Source: Onchidella celtica (taxonomy: Eukaryota; Mollusca; Gastropoda; Systellommatophora; Onchidiidae). Taken from it: 64,000 bases of DNA. A model generated the notes under the pieces. The model was given only the letters and a program-made list of their open reading frames with translations. It was not told the DNA's origin and ran no database searches. Shown here piece after piece: positions 5,231 through 61,612 of the stretch. Where the stretch lies: contig OZ007582.1 of assembly GCA_963931925.1 (NCBI GenBank), positions 20,185,292 to 20,249,291 of the forward strand, read 5' to 3'. The translations under genes and the position numbers were made by a program. Numbering within the stretch: the first letter of the stretch is position 1; every line of letters starts with the position of its first letter.

Positions 5231-6421
5231 TCTGGCGTTCACACCAGCTTTAGACTGCTTCACCCCTAAAGTTTGTATTTTTACATGTATTCTTTCATTC
5301 TATTTAAGCCTCATCTATGAACTAGCCTCACTGAGCTGAGAAGGGACATAACATCCCATTCCTCAAATGCCATACTTCTTTCCCCTTCCTTTCTTATTTG
5401 TTCAATTAACTTTGCTGGTACATGTAGACAGGTCCATGTGGGAAGTGCATCATGTAGAAAGGTCTTCATTATGTCCATCCTGTTCCATTCTTTGGCTGCT
5501 TATAACACTTTAACTCAATGTAAATAAACATAAATAAAATGCCTGGAATAATGTTTTGTGGCAAAAAGAATTAAATGAAGAAAATGGACTCTACCACCGG
5601 ACAAAACATTATACTAATAAAACAGCACCTATCATGACTAATATTATTCTTCCATGGATTGAAACAAAAAAGACACAACATATACATGTAAAGTGTACAC
5701 AATGAACATTTCATTATCTAACAACAAATAATAAATTTTCATTGCTGTGGAAAGTACAGAAATTTAAGAAAAAAAGATATACACAAAATGGAACAGAATT
5801 TCTAATAATTACAGTAGCTGTTCTTGTTTCAGTTCCATGATGAATGACATACACGTATATATATCTTAGAATAGACTTTGATGAATGTGATGCATTTCAA
5901 AGCATAATGTAACTTGGCAAGTTGTCTATGAGGTGCTACGTGTTGCCCACAAATGGCAGACATAAAAAATTTTAGACCTGATCTTGGGGTAACTCTAAAC
6001 GTGCCTCATTTGTGGTTTGATAAATTTTAAAACGATGTCCGAAAAAGGCCCCAACAAAACAAAAAAGTGCAAATATGCCATGCTGAAAATGAGGTAAGCC
6101 CATTCATTGAAATGTGTCATTATGTATAGAAAAGTACCAGTATACTATAGTAAGACAAACTAAAACACTGACTGGGCCATGTGCATATATACAAGGAAAT
6201 AAAAATAATGAATTTCACATTATTACTTTTTGAAACAAAGTGAATCTCAATAAAATTCAAATTTAAAATTATTCAAAGGAAAATTCTTTCTGTATCAATA
6301 ATGGTATGAAGTACACTAATGTCTTTTGCTCACTTGTAGTACCACAGGGGAGGCAAAAAGAATGAGAGGCTTGGGTGTCTTTGAGAAAACTGTTCATAAC
6401 ATGATTGCAGGCTGCGTAAAT

Positions 6422-22700: not shown

Positions 22701-25700
22701 TGGATATGCTGCATAGTTACCTTGGGAACTATTCTGGTCTCTTGCACTAGATGTGCTACCTTCATCTCCTGAACTTGGTGCCAGGCTGTCATGGTCTGAA
22801 TAAAGTTTCTGCAAGAGCTCAGTTAATTTGTTCCTCTCCCTCACAGCCGGTATACTCAAAATTTCTGACTGCAAGGTAACATTGATGAACTTGTTGACAC
22901 CTGTAGAAAGGGAAAAACAAATGTCAAAATTTGGTCTGGTAAGTTTGCAGTAACATTTTTCAGCCTTTATATCAATTTGCAGAGTTTGTGAGGAAGGAGT
23001 TGTTTCAAGTATAGTGGAGTCCGCATAATAATGACAATTCAAAGTTGACGGGAAATGAATGAAGCTTTGATTTACCAGAGTTCGATTTACCTCTGAGCAA
23101 AGAATTAACAATTATTACACTGTTTGCCGCATCCCGCATATCATACATAACATGTCACCCCCACCCAAACAATAACAACAAACACATGGGCACCTGTACA
23201 AGACCTTTAGATAAATTATTTCTTCTTCAGAAGTGTCCATAACGCGTTATCCCACCTGTCAACCTTGCTAAGAGTGGCGTGAAGTGACTATTATGCGATG
23301 CAAAAATGCCCTACTTTCATCCCCCCTCCCACCATTTCACGCCCTGTTGCAGCAATGCTCACTGCATTACATTACCCTAACCATTCCTTTCCCTGGATCA
23401 TTGATTGACTGAAGCTAAAAGTGTTTGGACAGGACTTATGTGGGTACTAAGGTTTTCTGCCGGCAGGAAATTTGAAGTTACATAGGGATGAGTGAGCTTG
23501 ATGACTTCGAATTATCAGAAATTGTTTAAATTAAATAGAAAAAAGATTAAGAGATAAGGAATCTAAGTGGAAAAACAAACTGTGAAGTTACTTCTATTTA
23601 ACCCTTTTGTTTTTCTATTCTGGCTACTTGTGAAACGCTCTACTGGCCGACTTCTGGCTACATGGCCGCCCTGATTTGTTTAACATTTTTCAGCTCTATG
23701 AATTATCAGAAATTGGTCACTGCGAGTTTAAATTAAATAGAAAAAAGATTAAGAGATAAGGAATCTATGTGGAAAAACAAACTGTGAAGTTACTTCTATT
23801 TAACCCTTTTGTTTTTCTATTCTGGCTACTTGTGAAGCGCTCTACTGGCCGACTTCTGGCTACATGGCCGCCCTGATTTGTTTAACATTTTTCAGCTCTA
23901 TGAATTATCAGAAATTGGTCACTGCGAGTTTAAATTAAATAGAAAAAAGATTAAGAGATAAGGAATCTAAGTGGAAAAACAAACTGTGAAGTTACTTCTA
24001 TTTAACCCTTTTGTTTTTCTATTCTGGCTACTTGTGAAGCGCTCTACTGGCCGACTTCTGGCGGCCGACTTCTGGCTACATGGCCGCCCTGATTTGTTTA
24101 ACATTTTTCAGCTCTATGAATTATCAGAAATTGGTCACTGCGAGTTTAAATTAAATAGAAAAAAGATTAAGAGATAAGGAATCTAAGTGGAAAAACAAAC
24201 TGTGAAGTTACTTCTATTTAACCCTTTTGTTTTTCTATTCTGGCTACTTGTGAAGCGCTCTACTGGCCGACTTCTGGCGGCCGACTTCTGGCTACATGGC
24301 CGCCCTGATTTGTTTAACATTTTTCAGCTCTATGAATTATCAGAAATTGGTCACTGCGAGTTTAAATTAAATAGAAAAAAGATTAAGAGATAAGGAATCT
24401 AAGTGGAAAAACAAACTGTGAAGTTACTTCTATTTAACCCTTTTGTTTTTCTATTCTGGCTACTTGTGAAGCGCTCTAATGGCCGACTTCTGGCTACATG
24501 GCCGCCCTGATTTGTTTACATTTTTCAGCTTTATGGCCGCTGCTGCTGCCTGCCTTCACTAAAATGGAAATTGTAGCACCACGTCGCATCTATGATAATG
24601 AATTTTGACATACTTTATTGACAAATGAATGAACTAAAAGATGAAGCTATTTATATCGGAATGCCAAGATCTGCTTGTTGGTTTTATGAATGTGAAATGC
24701 TGAATGGAGATGTGTGACACTACCACGGAGACAGAAGGACAATACAGTATTACACACTATTGCATCCCATCTCGTTTGTTATCCAAGCATACGACACTAC
24801 CCACACAAAGGCACCATGCTAGTATAATATGCATGTATTATCGTAACTATATACTACAAGCATGTGCTGACCAATACATGATGTAGGCTCAGAAGGAGGA
24901 ACAGGCCTGTTGGATGACCATGTGTAATACAATACAGTACTTGTAGGCTTAACTCATGCTTTATGGTTCAAACTGGGTCAGTGGACATCTGAAGATTACC
25001 TGGTGATATCATTCACTATTTACAGCTATTCATGCACTGTTCTTCCTTTCAAAATTGTATACAAAACTGGGGGACACTGGCCGGCTGGATACGGCCCGGT
25101 TGAACACATGGCAGCGTCATAGACAAAGCTGGATTCGGCTGAGTTGAAAAAATCGCAGGCCATACTTAAGTTAAAGGCCGGGTTCAGCCGGGTTAAATAC
25201 GAAAGGGTTCAAACAATTCAGATTAACAATTTTGATTTACATAGTATAGACTCCACTGTATTTCTTTAACCCTCTTTTCATCCTGATATGACACATAAAA
25301 TCTTGTATCTACTTTCCCAAACAGCAAGATGTCTCCAAATTTCTGCTTTTTTCCATCTCTCCATTAACACATTTTGCAAAAATTGTTTCTAAAATTTTGT
25401 AATTAAATTAAGCTTTAAAAAGTGTTAGGTTGAATTATTAAATTTAAAATATTTCCTGTAACAAACTTCATGTTTTTCTTTCCTTCACTGCATTCTATAT
25501 CAAAATACCTTCAAATTGGCATAACTTGTGTGATTGACTGACAAATATGGAAAACATTCAGACATGATCCATTTTCTGGGTGTGGCAATTTGGGCAAATA
25601 TGTCCAATGGTTGTAAAACATTTAGGGTTGAAGTAGTTGAATGAGTTTTAATATTTAATTTTAAAGGTACATTTTAAATCAACAGGGAAATTAGATCTAG

Positions 25701-29453: not shown

Positions 29454-30030
29454 GTGAGAGAGAGAGACAGACAGACAGACAGGCAGGCAGAAAGAGGGGC
29501 GAGGGAGATAGACAGCTAGACGACAGAGAAGCAGAAAGAGGAGCGAGGGGAGAAAGAGAGAAAGAGAAAGACAGAGAGAAAGAGAAAGACAGAGAAAAAG
29601 AGAAAGAGAGCAGAGAGACAGACACAGAAAGAAAGAGAAAGACATATATACACTCACACACAGAGAGAGAAAGAGAAAGACAGAGAGAGAGAGAGAGGAG
29701 GGGGGGGGGAGAGGGAGAGAAGAAAGACAGGCACAGAAAGGCAAGAGAAAGAAAAACACACACATACACATACACAGCAAGATAAAGACAGAGAGAGAGA
29801 GAGAGGAGGGGGGGGGGAAGAGAGGGAGAGAAGAAAGACAGGCACAGAAAGGCAAGAGAAAGAAAAACACACACATACACATACACAGCAAGATAAAGAC
29901 AGAGAGAGAGAGAGAGGAGGGGGGGGGGAAGAGAGGGAGAGAAGAAAGACAGGCACAGAAAGGCAAGAGAAAGAAAAACACACACATACACATACACAGC
30001 AAGATAAAGACAGAGAGAGAGAGAGAGAGC
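29454..30030 (+). repeat. Long polypurine/CA-rich tract with 111-bp tandem repeats
   Basis: The plus strand is almost pure A/G, with interspersed GACA and CACA, for nearly 600 bp. From about 29,680 it resolves into about three units of 111 bp (gataaagac at 29781, 29892 and 30003), each with an AG run, a G8-G10 run, and a cacacatacacatacacagc segment. The long minus-strand open frames here encode only Leu/Ser/Cys/Phe low complexity. Confidence 0.9.
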
Positions 30031-33887: not shown

Positions 33888-36800
33888 TTAAAAGTTTTCA
33901 AAGTGGTGCTCGAACATTGCTTTGGTGACCTTGCTTGTATCCACACATGCACGTTCGACTCCTTTGGTGACCCCTGGAGGACCGCAGCTGAACACGCCCA
34001 CCTTGCGAACCTGATGATTGACAGCACAAGTAATAAATTGGTTAGCACTGTTATAGGATGGACTGATGGATAGGTGGATTGAACATGGTGGTGGTGGTAG
34101 GGATGGGGTGAATGAGTGAATGACTCCACGAATAAATACACATGGCTGGATGATTGAGTCAGGAAATGAAAGATGAGGAGAGGGATATCGTCGGTCAGCT
34201 GTTGGAACCTCCTTAAAACTACGGTAACCTTTGAAACTGTTGGTAGGGGACCACAGTACTTTACATAGAATGCCTCACTTGAGTAGTGAACACAGCTTAG
34301 TATCTTATACATATACTGATAAATCTGTACGACATATAATTCACAAATTCCTGACCTTTGAATACAAATGCCTTTTTTATTAGGCCACCTACAGTAACCA
34401 AATTTTGCATGCGGGGTTTCAAATACTGTGGATAGTGCATCGAAGTTTAGATTTTTCTTTATTGCTTTTGTTTTTCTATGTGTTTGAGTTTGCTTTGTGT
34501 CGGTGGTGAGCATCCTTTTTTTCCACGAGCACATGACCCATAGTGTGAACACTTCCTGTCATATGCAGGTTACTGCTGTGGGCTGATTTAAGCTATTCAT
34601 CGTGCTCGCCGCTTAAGTTTAGAACATAGGAAGACCATGTAGGAAGGATAGAAAGTGATAGGTGTGGCAGTGGTTGGTGGTGGCGGGGGGTCTGGGCGAG
34701 GCGTGGCTTTTAAGCTTGTTTTATCTATTTGGCTTGTAATAGACTATGGTTCCCTGAACAATGGCTGGTTTTAACAAGGTTCCAACACCAGACCTATGAT
34801 TTGTAATGGATAGAGCAAAGGATGAAAAGCTCTTGCAGACGATGGTTACAATTTTGCCTGAATTACTTTATCAACAAATGTCACACCTGGATAAATAATG
34901 ACGTTAAATAATATGAATTATAAACAAAGGGAGTGAAAGATAAATGTATAAAACACTGCATTTAATGGTAGACTGGATTAGCAGATGAACAGATGGATGA
35001 ACAGTAAACGGGGAGTATGAATCATGAATGGATGTATGGACAGATTTGGGGTGGGGCAGATACATTTATGGATGGCTGGTGGGATGGGCGGATGGAGGAA
35101 AAAATGGAAAGATGGATGGTGAATGAGTAAATGGCAGGAAGCATAATGGGTATATGGATGGATGGCTGGATGGACAGATGGAATGATAAATGGGTGACGC
35201 AATAAATGACAGTGAGGACAGGTTAATAGAAGCAGAGAGAAACCTATAAGATTAAAATAAGAAATAATTTCTTTAGTAAACCATTAGTATTTAAAAACAA
35301 GAATTTGAGTACATACTTATTATATAAAAACACAAAAAACTGTAAAGGCCATACCTGCGGGTGAGCTCTATGTACAGCACCCATGATTTTGTTCATCTGT
35401 GGTCGACCAAAGTGGGTGGTGGCTTTCAAACCTGTGAACACACTCTTGCCACCATTCATCTTTTGGAAATGTTCTTCGAAGATATACTGAAAAGAGTGAA
35501 ATGAAGCAATTAGGAGACAATCCTAAGAAAATTCTTGATGTCGAGGTCTGGCTGATTTCATAATAAAGAGAACAAAACCAAGAGGGAAAAGGCTGAATGG
35601 ATGGAATGTAGCACTGAAACGACAGACTGAAGGATAGGGAGAAGTTTCTAGAGGTGAGTGCATTTGACAAACTATGTACGGTTTGTGTTTGACAAATCTA
35701 TGGGACTATCCATGAAGTATGCATGCTTGATTTTTGTGAGTTTTGACATGAGATAATGAGATGATTACAAAACCAAAAGGGAAAAAGTTGAATGGATGGA
35801 ATGTAGCACTGAACCGACAGACTGAAGGATAGGGAGAAGTTTCTAGAGGTGAGTGCATTTGACAAACTATGTACGGTTTGTGTTTGACAAATCTATGGGA
35901 CTATCCATGAAGTATGCATGCTTGATTTTTGTGAGTTTTGACATGAGATAATGAGATGATTACAAAACCAAAAGGGAAAAAGTTGAATGGATGGAATGTA
36001 GCACTGAACCGACAGACTGAAGGATAGGGAGAAGTTTCTAGAGGTGAGTGCATTTGACAAACTATGTACGGTTTGTGTTTGACAAATCTATGGGACTATC
36101 CATGAAGTATGCGTGCTTGATTTTTGTGAGTTTTGACATGAGATAATGAGATGATTACAAAACCAAAAGGGAAAAAGTTGAATGGATGGAATGTAGCACT
36201 GAACCGACAGACTGAAGGATAGGGAGAAGTTTCTAGAGGTGAGTGCAATTGTCAAACTATGTACGGTTTGTGTTTGACAAATCTATGGGACTATCCATGA
36301 AATATGCATGCTCTATTTTGGTGAGTTTTGACATGAGATAATGAGATGATTATAAAACCAAAAGGGAAAAAGTTGAATGGATGGAATGTAGCACTGAAAC
36401 GACAGACTGAAGGATAGGGAGAAGTTTCTAGAGGTGAGTGCATTTGACAAACTATGTACGGTTTGTGTTTGACAAATCTATGGGACTATCCATGAAGTAT
36501 GCATGCTTGATTTTTGTGAGTTTTGACATGAGATAATGAGATGATTACAAAACCAAAAGGGAAAAAGTTGAATGGATGGAATGTAGCACTGAACCGACAG
36601 ACTGAAGGATAGGGAGAAGTTTCTAGAGGTGAGTGCATTTGACAAACTATGTACGGTTTGTGTTTGACAAATCTATGGGACTATCCATGAAGTATGCATG
36701 CTTGATTTTTGTGAGTTTTGACATGAGATAATGAGATGATTACAAAACCAAAAGGGAAAAAGTTGAATGGATGGAATGTAGCACTGAACCGACAGACTGA

Positions 36801-39800
36801 AGGATAGGGAGAAGTTTCTAGAGGTGAGTGCATTTGACAAACTATGTACGGTTTGTGTTTGACAAATCTATGGGACTATCCATGAAGTATGCATGCTTGA
36901 TTTTTGTGAGTTTTGACATGAGATAATGAGATGATTACAAAACCAAAAGGGAAAAAGTTGAATGGATGGAATGTAGCACTGAACCGACAGACTGAAGGAT
37001 AGGGAGAAGTTTCTAGAGGTGAGTGCAATTGTCAAACTATGTACGGTTTGTGTTTGACAAATCTATGGGACTATCCATGAAATATGCATGCTCTATTTTG
37101 GTGAGTTTTGACATGAGATAATGAGATGATTATAAAACCAAAAGGGAAAAAGTTGAATGGATGGAATGTAGCACTGAAACGACAGACTGAAGGATAGGGA
37201 GAAGTTTCTAGAGGTGAGTGCATTTGACAAACTATGTACGGTTTGTGTTTGACAAATCTATGGGACTATCCATGAAGTATGCATGCTTGATTTTTGTGAG
37301 TTTTGACATGAGATAATGAGATGATTACAAAACCAAAAGGGAAAAAGTTGAATGGATGGAATGTAGCACTGAACCGACAGACTGAAGGATAGGGAGAAGT
37401 TTCTAGAGGTGAGTGCATTTGACAAACTATGTACGGTTTGTGTTTGACAAATCTATGGGACTATCCATGAAGTATGCATGCTTGATTTTTGTGAGTTTTG
37501 ACATGAGATAATGAGATGATTACAAAACCAAAAGGGAAAAAGTTGAATGGATGGAATGTAGCACTGAACCGACAGACTGAAGGATAGGGAGAAGTTTCTA
37601 GAGGTGAGTGCATTTGACAAACTATGTACGGTTTGTGTTTGACAAATCTATGGGACTATCCATGAAGTATGCATGCTTGATTTTTGTGAGTTTTGACATG
37701 AGATAATGAGATGATTACAAAACCAAAAGGGAAAAAGTTGAATGGATGGAATGTAGCACTGAACCGACAGACTGAAGGATAGGGAGAAGTTTCTAGAGGT
37801 GAGTGCAATTGTCAAACTATGTACGGTTTGTGTTTGACAAATCTATGGGACTATCCATGAAATATGCATGCTCTATTTTGGTGAGTTTTGACATGAGATA
37901 ATGAGATGATTATAAAACCAAAAGGGAAAAAGTTGAATGGATGGAATGTAGCACTGAACCGACAGACTGAAGGATAGGGAGAAGTTTCTAGAGGTGATTG
38001 CAATTGTCAAACTATGTACGGTTTGTGTTGACAGATCTAAGGGACTATCCATGAAGTATGCATGCTCTATTTTGGTGAGTTTTGACCTGAGATAATGAGA
38101 CGATGTCACTATTGTCAATAGGAAACATATTGGATGAAAAGACATTTTCACTCACCAACAATGATGTTCTCAGATCAAAGTTCTGGAAGAATTGTGTGAT
38201 GAAAATATCAATGGACACCATTCCTTGTGTATCTACTTCCTCCACCTCTCGCAAAATGTCAATTAGCCACTCAAAATGTCGCTGACTTCCAGTGATCCAA
38301 ATGAAGTAGAGCTGTGATTGATAAGAAAATTAAACATTATTCCAGTATATTTTTAATCCAGATTGAAAATTTTAATCAACAGCAATGCTGGGGGATGAGT
38401 GTCCTCTCCCTTTCCACACAATTTGTAATTATTTATGACATTACAGTCCAATCCACTTATCTCGACATGGCTTTTCTCGACATTCTGGGTAACTCGACAC
38501 AATTTTTAAGTCCCAACCTGTTCCTTCTTTAATGCTACTAAATATTTCCCCGTAACTCGACATGTTATTCCATTCTTTCCTCTTATATCGACACATTTCT
38601 CTCCGACCGCGGCAAAACAAGTGCACTAGATCTACTGTGCTACCCAAAATGCCCATGCAACTCCCCGCATATAAGATCTCTTTATTTCTTTTTGCGGTGT
38701 TGGCGGGGAGGGGTAGGAGAGGGGTGTGTGAACACAGAGGGGTGTGTGGACACAGAGGATGACCCTCGGCTTTAGTAACGCGAGTGTCGAGTGCCATGCA
38801 TACGCGCACGGCAGTAAAAGTAGGCCTACAGAGTACTACAGGTAACAGACTGAGTAATTTTTTCCCCCCCTCAAAACATTCGTGCGCCGTTGATACTAGG
38901 CCTTGACCTAGATCTCTTGGTTAACTGCCGTACTGTGTGTATTGGTATCATCACTTCTTCTGAAGAAACAGTCAGGTTGAGGTTAAAAAGAAAAAAGTAA
39001 AGCACTGCGCATATGATTGGTACAGCATTTCGCCGATATCGGCAAATCTTTTCCACGCAACTGCTCCCACACAACAGTAATATTGGGGGAGCAGGTGACA
39101 GTATGCCAATAATTAAAAGAAAAGGGGACATAATTGCGTTATCTATTGGACACTTCCAATTATGGTGATGTTTTTGTTTTGTTTTATCTCTTGTAAGATG
39201 ATTTAATTTCTAACAAATTATATTAGAATTGTCATCTCTAATTGGCAAATGAAACGTTTCACCTTCATTGATGATACTGTCATTATAAACTGGGTTGGAT
39301 GCAACATTATTGTTATCAAACTAATATACTGTAAAACTCAAACTTCACGTTTTCTATTCATGTCCCCAAAAACTCATCTTTAACTGACTCTACAATCTTT
39401 CTATGCACCCTCCTTCAGCCTTTCATATCCTTACCTTCTGACATTTGACCTTGTACCTCATGTTGATGGATGCCATGTGAACAAAATCTTTCAAGATTGA
39501 AGCATAAGGTGTGACACCGATACCTGCTCCCACCAACACACTGACGTCATACTGATACCAGTCCTGTTGACCTGCACCATAGGGTCCATCAAGATAAAGC
39601 TGTGGATGACACCAGATTAAAAAACACATATATATATATTTGGTACTTCAGGTAAAATCAGCAGGGCCGGTCTCAAGAACTGCCGGGCCCAATAATTATA
39701 ATCGCAGGTGTTCTCTGTAAAATCTTCAGTCTGGTGTTATGTGTGTGTCGCAATGTCTTATATGTACTTGAAAGGCTACATTACCCTCGGGACCAAATAG

Positions 39801-57800: not shown

Positions 57801-60141
57801 CATTGCCGTGAACACTTGTAATTGTCTTCTTTAACCCCCCACCATTCATTCTTCTCTGCTGCACTCTCAGCTTTGGTTTCTCCCTACCACCCCTTCTCTC
57901 TGTTGCACTCATTTTTTTCTACCCTTCCCTCTTATTTCTTTTCAATGTATCATCCATCCCCCATCCCCCCCCCCCCCCCCAAAAAAAATTCTCCCACCTA
58001 GTCCAGCTACTAACCATTCTGCACAGTAAATAAAACATTCTACTACATCCCTACCCCCAGTGTCAATGCTCCGTCCATTATAGTCATTGTTCTGTTAACA
58101 TCCCTCCCCTCTCTCCCCCCCCCCCCCTCCCCTACCACTCCTAAATCAGCAACTCACTGTCATTCACTGTAAACACATCGTCCTGTAGCGCTTCCATCCC
58201 AGTATTCTTTGTGACGTTGGCGATGATGTAGCTCAGTGTAATGTTCTCGATTTCCTGGATATCTTCTTCGCTAAACAGCCTGGTCAATGGATCATTGGGA
58301 CAGAGTCAACATTTGACATGATTAAAATCTCTAGACTAACACAGATTCTAGTCCTATTAAAATTTAATAATCAAAGTCAAAATGTGGCAAAAAGAAAATG
58401 TCTGTAGCAAAGTCTCTTTTTTTTTTCTTTAATAGTGCCTGTATTTAACAATCACAATGTCCAGATTATTCCAGATCATATTTCCATTATTCCACAGATT
58501 CTATCCCACAATTTAATAGTCACAATATCCGCATGGCAACAGATTCTATCTCTACTATGTGGTGATCTCTGATTAACAAAGATTCTATCTCCACTATTTA
58601 ATAATTATAATAGACACAATGTCTACATTACCATGGATTCTATCCCTACAGGAAACACGTAATGTCCAGATTATCATAAGTTCTATCCCTACTATCTAAT
58701 AACCACTATGTCCAGATTAACACAGATTCTATCCTTACTTTTTAAAATCACAATGTCTAGATTGCCGCATACAATTTTAATAACCACAATGTCCAGACAG
58801 CCATGGATTCCATCCCTACCAAAACACAATGTCCAGATTACACTTATCTAGATTACACTGCATTCTGTTCCCACTAAAACACAATGCACAAATTCAATCC
58901 TTACTATTTAGTAATCACAATGTTCAGATTACCCCAGATTATATCCATACAATTTAATAATCACAAAATATCTAAATAGCCTTTGATTCTATCCCTACTA
59001 AAACTCAATGTCCAGATTACTATAGACTTTATCCCTACTATTTAATAATCACTATATCCAGATAATCATGGATTATATCCTTACAATTTATAATCACAAT
59101 GTCTGGATTACCACAGATTCTGTCCTTACAATTTAATGCCACAATGTCCAGATTATCATAGATTCTATCCTTACAATTTAATGTCACAATGTCCAGATTA
59201 CCATGCATTTTATCCCTACCAGTATCAATGTCCAGATCACCACAGATTCTATCCTTACAATTTAATGTCACAATGTCCAGATTACCATGAATTCTATCCC
59301 TACTAGTCGAAATGTCCAGATTATCACAGATTCTATCCTCACAGTTTAATGTCTCAATGTCCAGATTACCATGGATTGTATCCCTGCTTAAAGAATCACG
59401 AAGTGCCAAATTCTCAACAAACCGGCCAGCAAAGGAACTAAGGTAATGAGACACGAACATAGGAAGAAACAATTTTTCCAAGGTTGAGAGACTCTGTTTT
59501 CACCACCAGCAACAACGAACTCACCCATGCTCCCTGTTCTCGTACCAAAAGCGATCTCCATCTCGCAGACGGATGAACTGGTCATACAAGATATGTTTGA
59601 ACAGCTCCCCTGGTCCGTCAGGTGTGGTCTCCATCATACCTCCTACAAACATGTCTATTTTGGACAGGTCACCATGCACCTTTTCCAATTTCGCTATCAA
59701 CTGATGAGACAATAAAAGTTTGATTAATTCTCAAGAGGTTTTGTTAACTTCAGTGTCGACTTCCACATTATATATATATTTTCGTGATAACCATTGCGTG
59801 TTAAAGTTTTATCCATTAAAAACAACAAGCAACTACAACCACAACAACAACAATGACAACGACAACAACAAAAACAACAATGAAAAAGGTAAGAAGATTT
59901 TATTCAAAGACAACTCAAGAAACACACGACATGCAGAACAACAAGATATTTTCATAATTTATTAAAGGGTGCAGATTATGTCTTGGCTTTGAACACTTTA
60001 ATTAGTCTAGATAGAAAATGATGTTAAACACGCAAATTTTGACGAAATCCGAGTAGACTAATTGATACATGCAATAGGACACACAGACATGGACACATCA
60101 ATAGACAGCCACATGGACAGGCAGGTGGTGAGAGTGAGAGT

Positions 60142-60181
<40 letters not shown>

Positions 60182-61612
60182 TGGGCGGGCAGACAAACAG
60201 ACAGAGAAAGACAGATCTACAAAAGAGACTGCGACTTAAACCTAATTATTACCTACTAACACATTAATCTTGCCCCAATACTACCTAATAATATACTAAT
60301 ATTGCCTCTGTATTGTCTAATAACATATTAATATTGCCTCAATATTGTCTGATAATATACTAATATTGTCCCAATATTGCCTAATAATATATACTAATAT
60401 TGCCTCAATATTGTCTAGTAAAACACATGTACTAATATTGTCTGATGATATACTAATATTGCCTCAGTATTGTATGCTAATATATTAATTAGTATTGCCT
60501 CAACATTGTTAAGTAATACACAAAAATGTTGCCCCAATATTGCCTAATAACGCACTAATATTCCTTAAATATTACCTCCTAATACATTAACATTGCTTAC
60601 TTATATACCCCCAATATTACCTAATAATGTGCTAATATTGTCTCAATATTGCCCGCTAATAATGATATCAATATTGACCCAACATGACGTAGTAGTACAC
60701 AAATATTACCTCAATATTGCCCACTAATACAGATGCTAAAATAATACCACAACTACAATAATAACATACCTCAGGGTTAGATGCATTGAGCAGTGGGTTG
60801 ACCTCAGCGAAACTCTGCACTGGTTTGAGTCCCATGCTTTTCCGGACTGTGTTGTAGTCAGGTAGACCAAAGTCCCGGCCTTTCATAATAGCCAGCACAA
60901 CAGCGTCATGGGTTGAATAGTAAAGTGGTCCATAATATTTGTCTGGTAGAACAAAGATGTCAGCGTGATTATAGTGTACAAACCACAACGTTGAAATATC
61001 ATCTCCTTGGAATTACAATGTTCTAACTCCTTCCATCAACTTAAAAAAAAACTGATGACTGAAGTTTCATGTGCTCATAGCTTTCTGAGATGCCACTTTT
61101 TCTCACTTTAGTAATAAAAATTACACACCGAATCCGCTTGATACTTTGACACACAATGGAGAAGGCCCGTAGAAGTAATGTGTAGTGTGTAACTCAGTTC
61201 AGCCAAAAAATTTGAGATACAACCTTATTCTAAGGAGTTGAAATGGAAAAAGATAAAAGGGAAAAGATTGTATATTACACAGACCCCGGTGTAAGAAAGA
61301 ATTTTAATAAAGAAGCACTACAATTAACCAGATATAAAAAGGTAAAACAGCACAATTGTCGGTTGGCTGTTAGAGCCTCATTCAACCCCGCCTCAAACTT
61401 TTGAGTTGAGATTTTCAGTTTGCCAAAATCTTCGTCGGGAACAAAAGGGAAAAAATAAAAATATATCAAGTTGATGGATGGATAGAAAGATAGACAAAAC
61501 AAAGGTTGCTACATAGATAGACGAACAGACATCTACTGTCTGACGGATGGCCGATAGACAAACAGACAGATCGGCAGGTTAGTATACAGACAGAGAGGTG
61601 GGTAGATAGACA

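Follow-up and report, generated by a model that had tools for sequence, protein, structure and literature searches.

An intronic tandem array with a recurring four-unit block in a mollusc DUOX gene

The penultimate intron of the DUOX coding region in the mollusc Onchidella celtica is occupied almost entirely by a tandem array with a period of 195 bp, in which a block of four units (780 bp) recurs three times. This is probably a local, non-coding array, made by head-to-tail duplication of a single unit and two block duplications, and its likeliest cause is unequal exchange or slippage acting on a short repeat within the intron. The array was studied within a window of 64,000 nucleotides, which is the whole stretch of DNA that was analysed, and all coordinates given here are positions in that window.

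In the output of Tandem Repeats Finder, the array spans 35572-38104, with a period of 195, 13.0 copies, 97% matches and a score of 4793, and an alignment and difference matrix of the individual units resolve it into 13 head-to-tail units. When the units are cut from position 35572, 12 of the 13 measure 195 bp, while the last (u13) measures 193 bp up to 38104 as a result of a one-base deletion and an end that falls one base early; the thirteen units of exactly 195 bp given in a preliminary description of this DNA are thus correct for all units but one. Only 19 of the 195 alignment columns are variable, and the units fall into types whose sequence along the array is A B B C A B B C A B B C D when u1 is scored as A and u3 as B. 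In the difference matrix, members of a type are mostly identical: the B units u2, u6, u7, u10 and u11 show no differences, nor do the C units u4, u8 and u12 or the A units u5 and u9. The exceptions are u3, which is a B unit with one substitution, and u1, where four sites, all inside its first 22 bp, depart from u5 and u9. The D unit, u13 (37912-38104), differs from all other units at 9 to 17 sites, its nearest relatives being the C units (9 differences) and the remainder lying 13-17 differences away. The arrangement expected from the preliminary description, three nearly identical 780-bp tetramers and one diverged unit, is what the alignment of all 13 units gives, with ABBC three times and then D. 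Exchange homogenises the interior of an array and leaves diverged units at its edges, and the two diverged portions seen here, the first 22 bp of u1 and the whole of u13, lie where this would predict.

The four-unit period is evident when the array is compared with itself at different lags. The 2365-bp tract 35594-37958, whose ends were placed at the onset of mismatches, shows a single mismatch when shifted by 780, at 36113 in the first tetramer, among 1585 compared sites. Over 35572-38019, identity is 99.5% at lag 780 and 98.0% at lag 195, and eight of the nine pairs of units that lie four apart agree in type, a level reached by 28 of 200,000 random orders. Blocks are thus more alike than neighbouring units are, which defines a higher-order repeat, and the earlier observation of variant sets returning every fourth unit is borne out. 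The tetramers of the repeated tract are at most one site apart, whereas between units inside one tetramer 0 to 8 of the 195 sites differ (a maximum of 10 when u1 is counted), and the two adjacent B units of each block are either identical or distinguished by a single base. This comparison gives good support to recent block amplification or conversion, as proposed from the first reading.

The host gene was identified from the exons around the array. The intron runs on the minus strand from 38155 (GTGAGT) to 35487 (CAG), a length of 2669 bp predicted from GT...AG splice sites and the translations of the flanking exons, and the array fills 2533 bp of it (94.9%), leaving flanks of 85 and 51 bp. 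The upstream exon lies at 38156-38310 (minus strand, 5' boundary approximate) and the downstream exon, which encodes YIFEEHFQ...RAHPQ, at 35355-35486 (minus strand); both are supported by translation and by a match to DUOX1 (6wxr). The figure of about 95% in the preliminary description stands, but the intron was not quite correctly placed there among the last exons: because a last coding exon (FEHHFENF and then a stop; minus strand, approximately 34010-33888, from an open reading frame with the splice site chosen by eye) follows, the intron is the penultimate one of the coding region. Together with pieces of three further upstream exons, the flanking exons match DUOX1 6wxr with an E value of 9.2e-125 over query residues 2-321. 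The domains NAD_binding_6 and FAD_binding_8 score above their cut-offs and Ferric_reduct below its own with this partial query. The gene thus has NADPH oxidase C-terminal domains and a dual oxidase as its best match. For a partial 648-aa query built from exon pieces, the best protein match is a DUOX2 fragment from Bulinus truncatus, a snail, with 89% identity over 56% of the query (7994 candidates scored; the best 120 of 1000 matches considered). Among these 120, it is followed by six unnamed proteins at 68-84%, and the next named matches, at approximately 45-60%, come from birds, ticks, fish, mammals and other molluscs. An open frame at 59524-59730 resembles a peroxidase domain by eye and putatively belongs to the same DUOX gene; it adjoins a tandem array of low identity at 58892-59385, with periods of 45, 84 and 129 bp.

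The observed order of units can be accounted for by a short series of events. An intronic sequence of about 195 bp, part of which resembles the end of a MITE-type DNA transposon, would have been duplicated head to tail, and four types, A, B, C and D, would then have emerged among the early units by divergence. The A-B-B-C block would subsequently have been copied by two events with a shift of four units each, either misaligned exchanges or slippage or conversion, which left three nearly identical 780-bp tetramers. In a symbolic model, two four-unit duplications lead from ABBCD through ABBCABBCD to exactly the observed order. It is from this arrangement that we infer the order and kind of events, and a single sequence is compatible with unequal exchange between sister chromatids or homologues, with slippage and with conversion. 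A toy simulation of random duplication and deletion (20,000 runs, crude and with arbitrary rates) yielded 6305 arrays of 10-16 units, of which 370 had a best period of at least two units at a level of at least 85%; in such a model, multi-unit periods would be nothing extraordinary, yet they would not be the usual outcome either. It is plausible that copy number differs between alleles. As to function, nothing is attributed to the array other than removal by splicing with the rest of the intron.

A feature that was absent from the first reading, and is new in this analysis, is the likeness of the unit to the end of a putative transposon at 582-1007. This single-copy element looks MITE-like because it carries 18-nt terminal inverted repeats at 582-599 and 990-1007 (83% complementary and 390 nt apart); its end-to-end pairing score was reached by 5 of 500 shuffles, and no target-site duplication could be assigned to it. 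When the unit was compared with the window by blastn, the match at 583-619 was the only one of low E value outside the array among the matches listed (5.3e-6 with u2 and 4.3e-7 with u13). Local alignment extends the likeness to approximately 45 bp of units B and C, which align with 575-619, and to 37 bp of unit D, which align with 583-619; the scores are 51, 51 and 54 for B, C and D, and none of 500 dinucleotide shuffles reached any of them. In u4, a type C unit, the stretch falls at 36286-36329 on the plus strand (coordinates derived from the unit offset), where the score of 51 compares with a shuffle maximum of 32 (0 of 500). A core pattern, composed after its matches had been seen, occurs with up to three mismatches 14 times, namely in all 13 units and at the element end only (0.03 expected). 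A shorter pattern of 18 bases from the element end, again with up to three mismatches, has extra matches at 5261 and 11338, with 0.65 chance matches expected in all.

The likeness is confined to one end of the element. The right end matches reverse-complemented units no better than it matches shuffles, which do as well in 244 of 500 cases with unit B, 335 of 500 with unit C and 288 of 500 with unit D. A second transposon end inside the unit is not supported by these figures. Nor is the interior of the element convincingly similar to unit C, its score being reached by 114 of 500 shuffles in forward and by 350 of 500 in reverse orientation. Because one end only is detectable and the right end and the interior remain at shuffle level, a candidate source is available for approximately 45 of the 195 bp and the other 150 or so are without one. 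By eye, two sites of the element are matched by C and D but not by B, one is matched by B but by neither C nor D, and at one more site only C departs from the element, and therefore neither type is simply ancestral. Since about 45 bp in every unit match the end of the putative element, a transposon fragment may have seeded the array, an origin that we infer from this resemblance. An exact word from the element end gave no hits in viral contigs or in genome contigs, an exact word from the unit gave none in viral contigs, and the full array had no match among plasmids, all of these being collections that are not expected to contain animal DNA, so that the negative results carry little weight. 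Publications matching the letters of the element end included titles on miR-142 and, by title, none on repeats.

Alternatively, the array could have arrived from elsewhere, as a dispersed satellite or as the cargo of a mobile element of the Helentron type known from oyster, with its four-unit pattern inserted ready-made. The oyster genome has been reported to hold many short satellite-like arrays on mobile elements (PMC7492417; PMC8268682), and a transposon-end-like stretch within the unit would fit such an origin. However, this is unlikely on the evidence of the window itself, where a second full 195-bp unit was seen neither among the blastn matches listed (all of those for u2 and part of those for u13) nor when the window was scanned in 700-bp pieces with unit C. 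The piece 5601-6300 gave a match score of 48, as against 51 for the best array-like match; its alignment is long and heavily gapped, and it was rejected as a copy of the unit and taken for chance. The 85- and 51-bp flanks of the intron also speak against insertion, as the best inverted match between them is 8 bp (from 35490, a bit of the array included); a weak, gapped direct match between the flanks was also seen.

That a single tetramer was expanded to three by the assembler is more improbable still. The near-perfect agreement at lag 780, with a lone substitution (36113) in 1585 sites, is what such an artefact would produce, although that one substitution weakly favours separate copies. Furthermore, exact repeats are more commonly collapsed than expanded by assemblers, and long reads commonly exceed the 2.5 kb of the array. 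It is very improbable that selection maintains the array, for instance in nucleosome positioning or in setting the rate of DUOX splicing. Nucleosome spacing is near 195 bp, and the unit is close to it in length. Satellites of 160-180 bp predominate in oyster (PMC8268682). Against selection, the unit shows no remarkable structure, RNA family match or reading frame, and recency accounts for the low divergence among its copies. Local duplication by unequal exchange or slippage remains the reading that we prefer.

The preliminary description had also likened the array to centromeric satellites, in which higher-order repeats are typical. This analogy is not supported, and a centromeric satellite was rejected as a conclusion, because two block duplications suffice for a four-unit period and the array is short; the B unit moreover is without a CENP-B core, and the window contains a second recent array of two unit types. 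The best candidate for the core in the B unit mismatches at four of the nine defined positions of the motif on either strand, an absence that is not decisive, since the CENP-B box is not universal among centromeric satellites. Such satellites form long arrays at centromeres and are bound by centromere proteins; what is seen here is an array of 13 units in an intron. Two other readings of the unit were discarded. Although 195 bp would correspond to 65 codons, each of the six frames of the B unit contains one to six stops, and a coding repeat was rejected for this reason. An array of RNA genes was rejected in view of the absence of any Rfam match at gathering thresholds in 35000-38700 and of the unremarkable folding of the B-unit RNA (gene strand; z -0.50, with 61 of 200 shuffles folding at least as well). 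Within u4-u5, the inverted repeats consist of two overlapping pairs only, one of 16 nt (75%) and one of 13 nt (85%), in one palindromic stretch.

The array is a further case of a known kind, its nearest counterparts being tandem repeats derived from transposon ends and the short arrays scattered through the oyster genome, and is a product of ordinary genome turnover. In block structure it resembles the higher-order repeats of alpha satellite, in which diverged monomers are likewise assembled into nearly identical blocks; here, however, there are three blocks only, they lie inside the intron of a gene, and the B unit has no CENP-B core. Divergence within a block is also far lower, at up to about 5%, in contrast to the 20-40% by which alpha monomers differ. 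Intronic minisatellites and VNTRs are similar as local arrays for which variation in copy number is expected, but a unit of 195 bp is longer than most of theirs. Satellite-like elements associated with genes have reportedly been found in Tribolium (PMC3411249; PMC5844308). Terminal inverted repeats and MITEs are an established source of tandem repeats, as in the TIR-220 repeats of Tetris in Drosophila virilis, and the units described there share with ours a length of about 200 bp, a terminal-inverted-repeat-like stretch and a head-to-tail arrangement (PMC12628747; PMC4079207). The present array differs from these in that one element end only is represented, most of the unit is without a source and no element with internal copies of the 195-bp unit was found in the window. 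In the Pacific oyster, short satellite-like arrays are scattered through the genome, and they resemble the DUOX array in being short and in having a unit of nearly nucleosomal length (PMC7492417; PMC8268682), whereas no Helentron-type flanks were recognised by eye around the array in the DUOX intron. The genome paper of the snail Biomphalaria glabrata enters 'Satellites' at 0.00% in its repeat table, and neither DUOX nor dual oxidase occurs in the available part of its main text. Among the literature matches listed for intronic higher-order repeats, snail satellites and repeats in DUOX introns, nothing on this locus was found by title or opening of the abstract.

This intron provides a compact example of a four-unit block pattern that two duplication events inside a gene would be enough to produce, and a pattern of this kind does not by itself point to a centromere. 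It is a tentative and rather doubtful possibility that the array is a newborn satellite, seeded by a transposon end in the intron of a gene and observed at an early stage, when its first higher-order block already exists. If this were true, it would mean that block structure can arise before an array has grown beyond about a dozen units and that a centromere is not needed for it. General views are left unchanged by the array. However, should its length prove variable among snails, the intron would serve conveniently as a marker at a gene involved in oxidant biology.

Several other tandem repeats occur in the window. The second recent array, at 23524-24535, consists of four complete units (202, 202, 216 and 216 bp) plus part of a fifth, and its units are alike save for a few bases and a duplicated 14-bp insertion in the third and fourth. 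Weaker arrays are found at 58892-59385, as noted above, at 60247-60489 and, downstream of DUOX, at 29598-30027, the last of these being a 111-bp repeat of 3.9 copies (92%) that is rich in GA runs.
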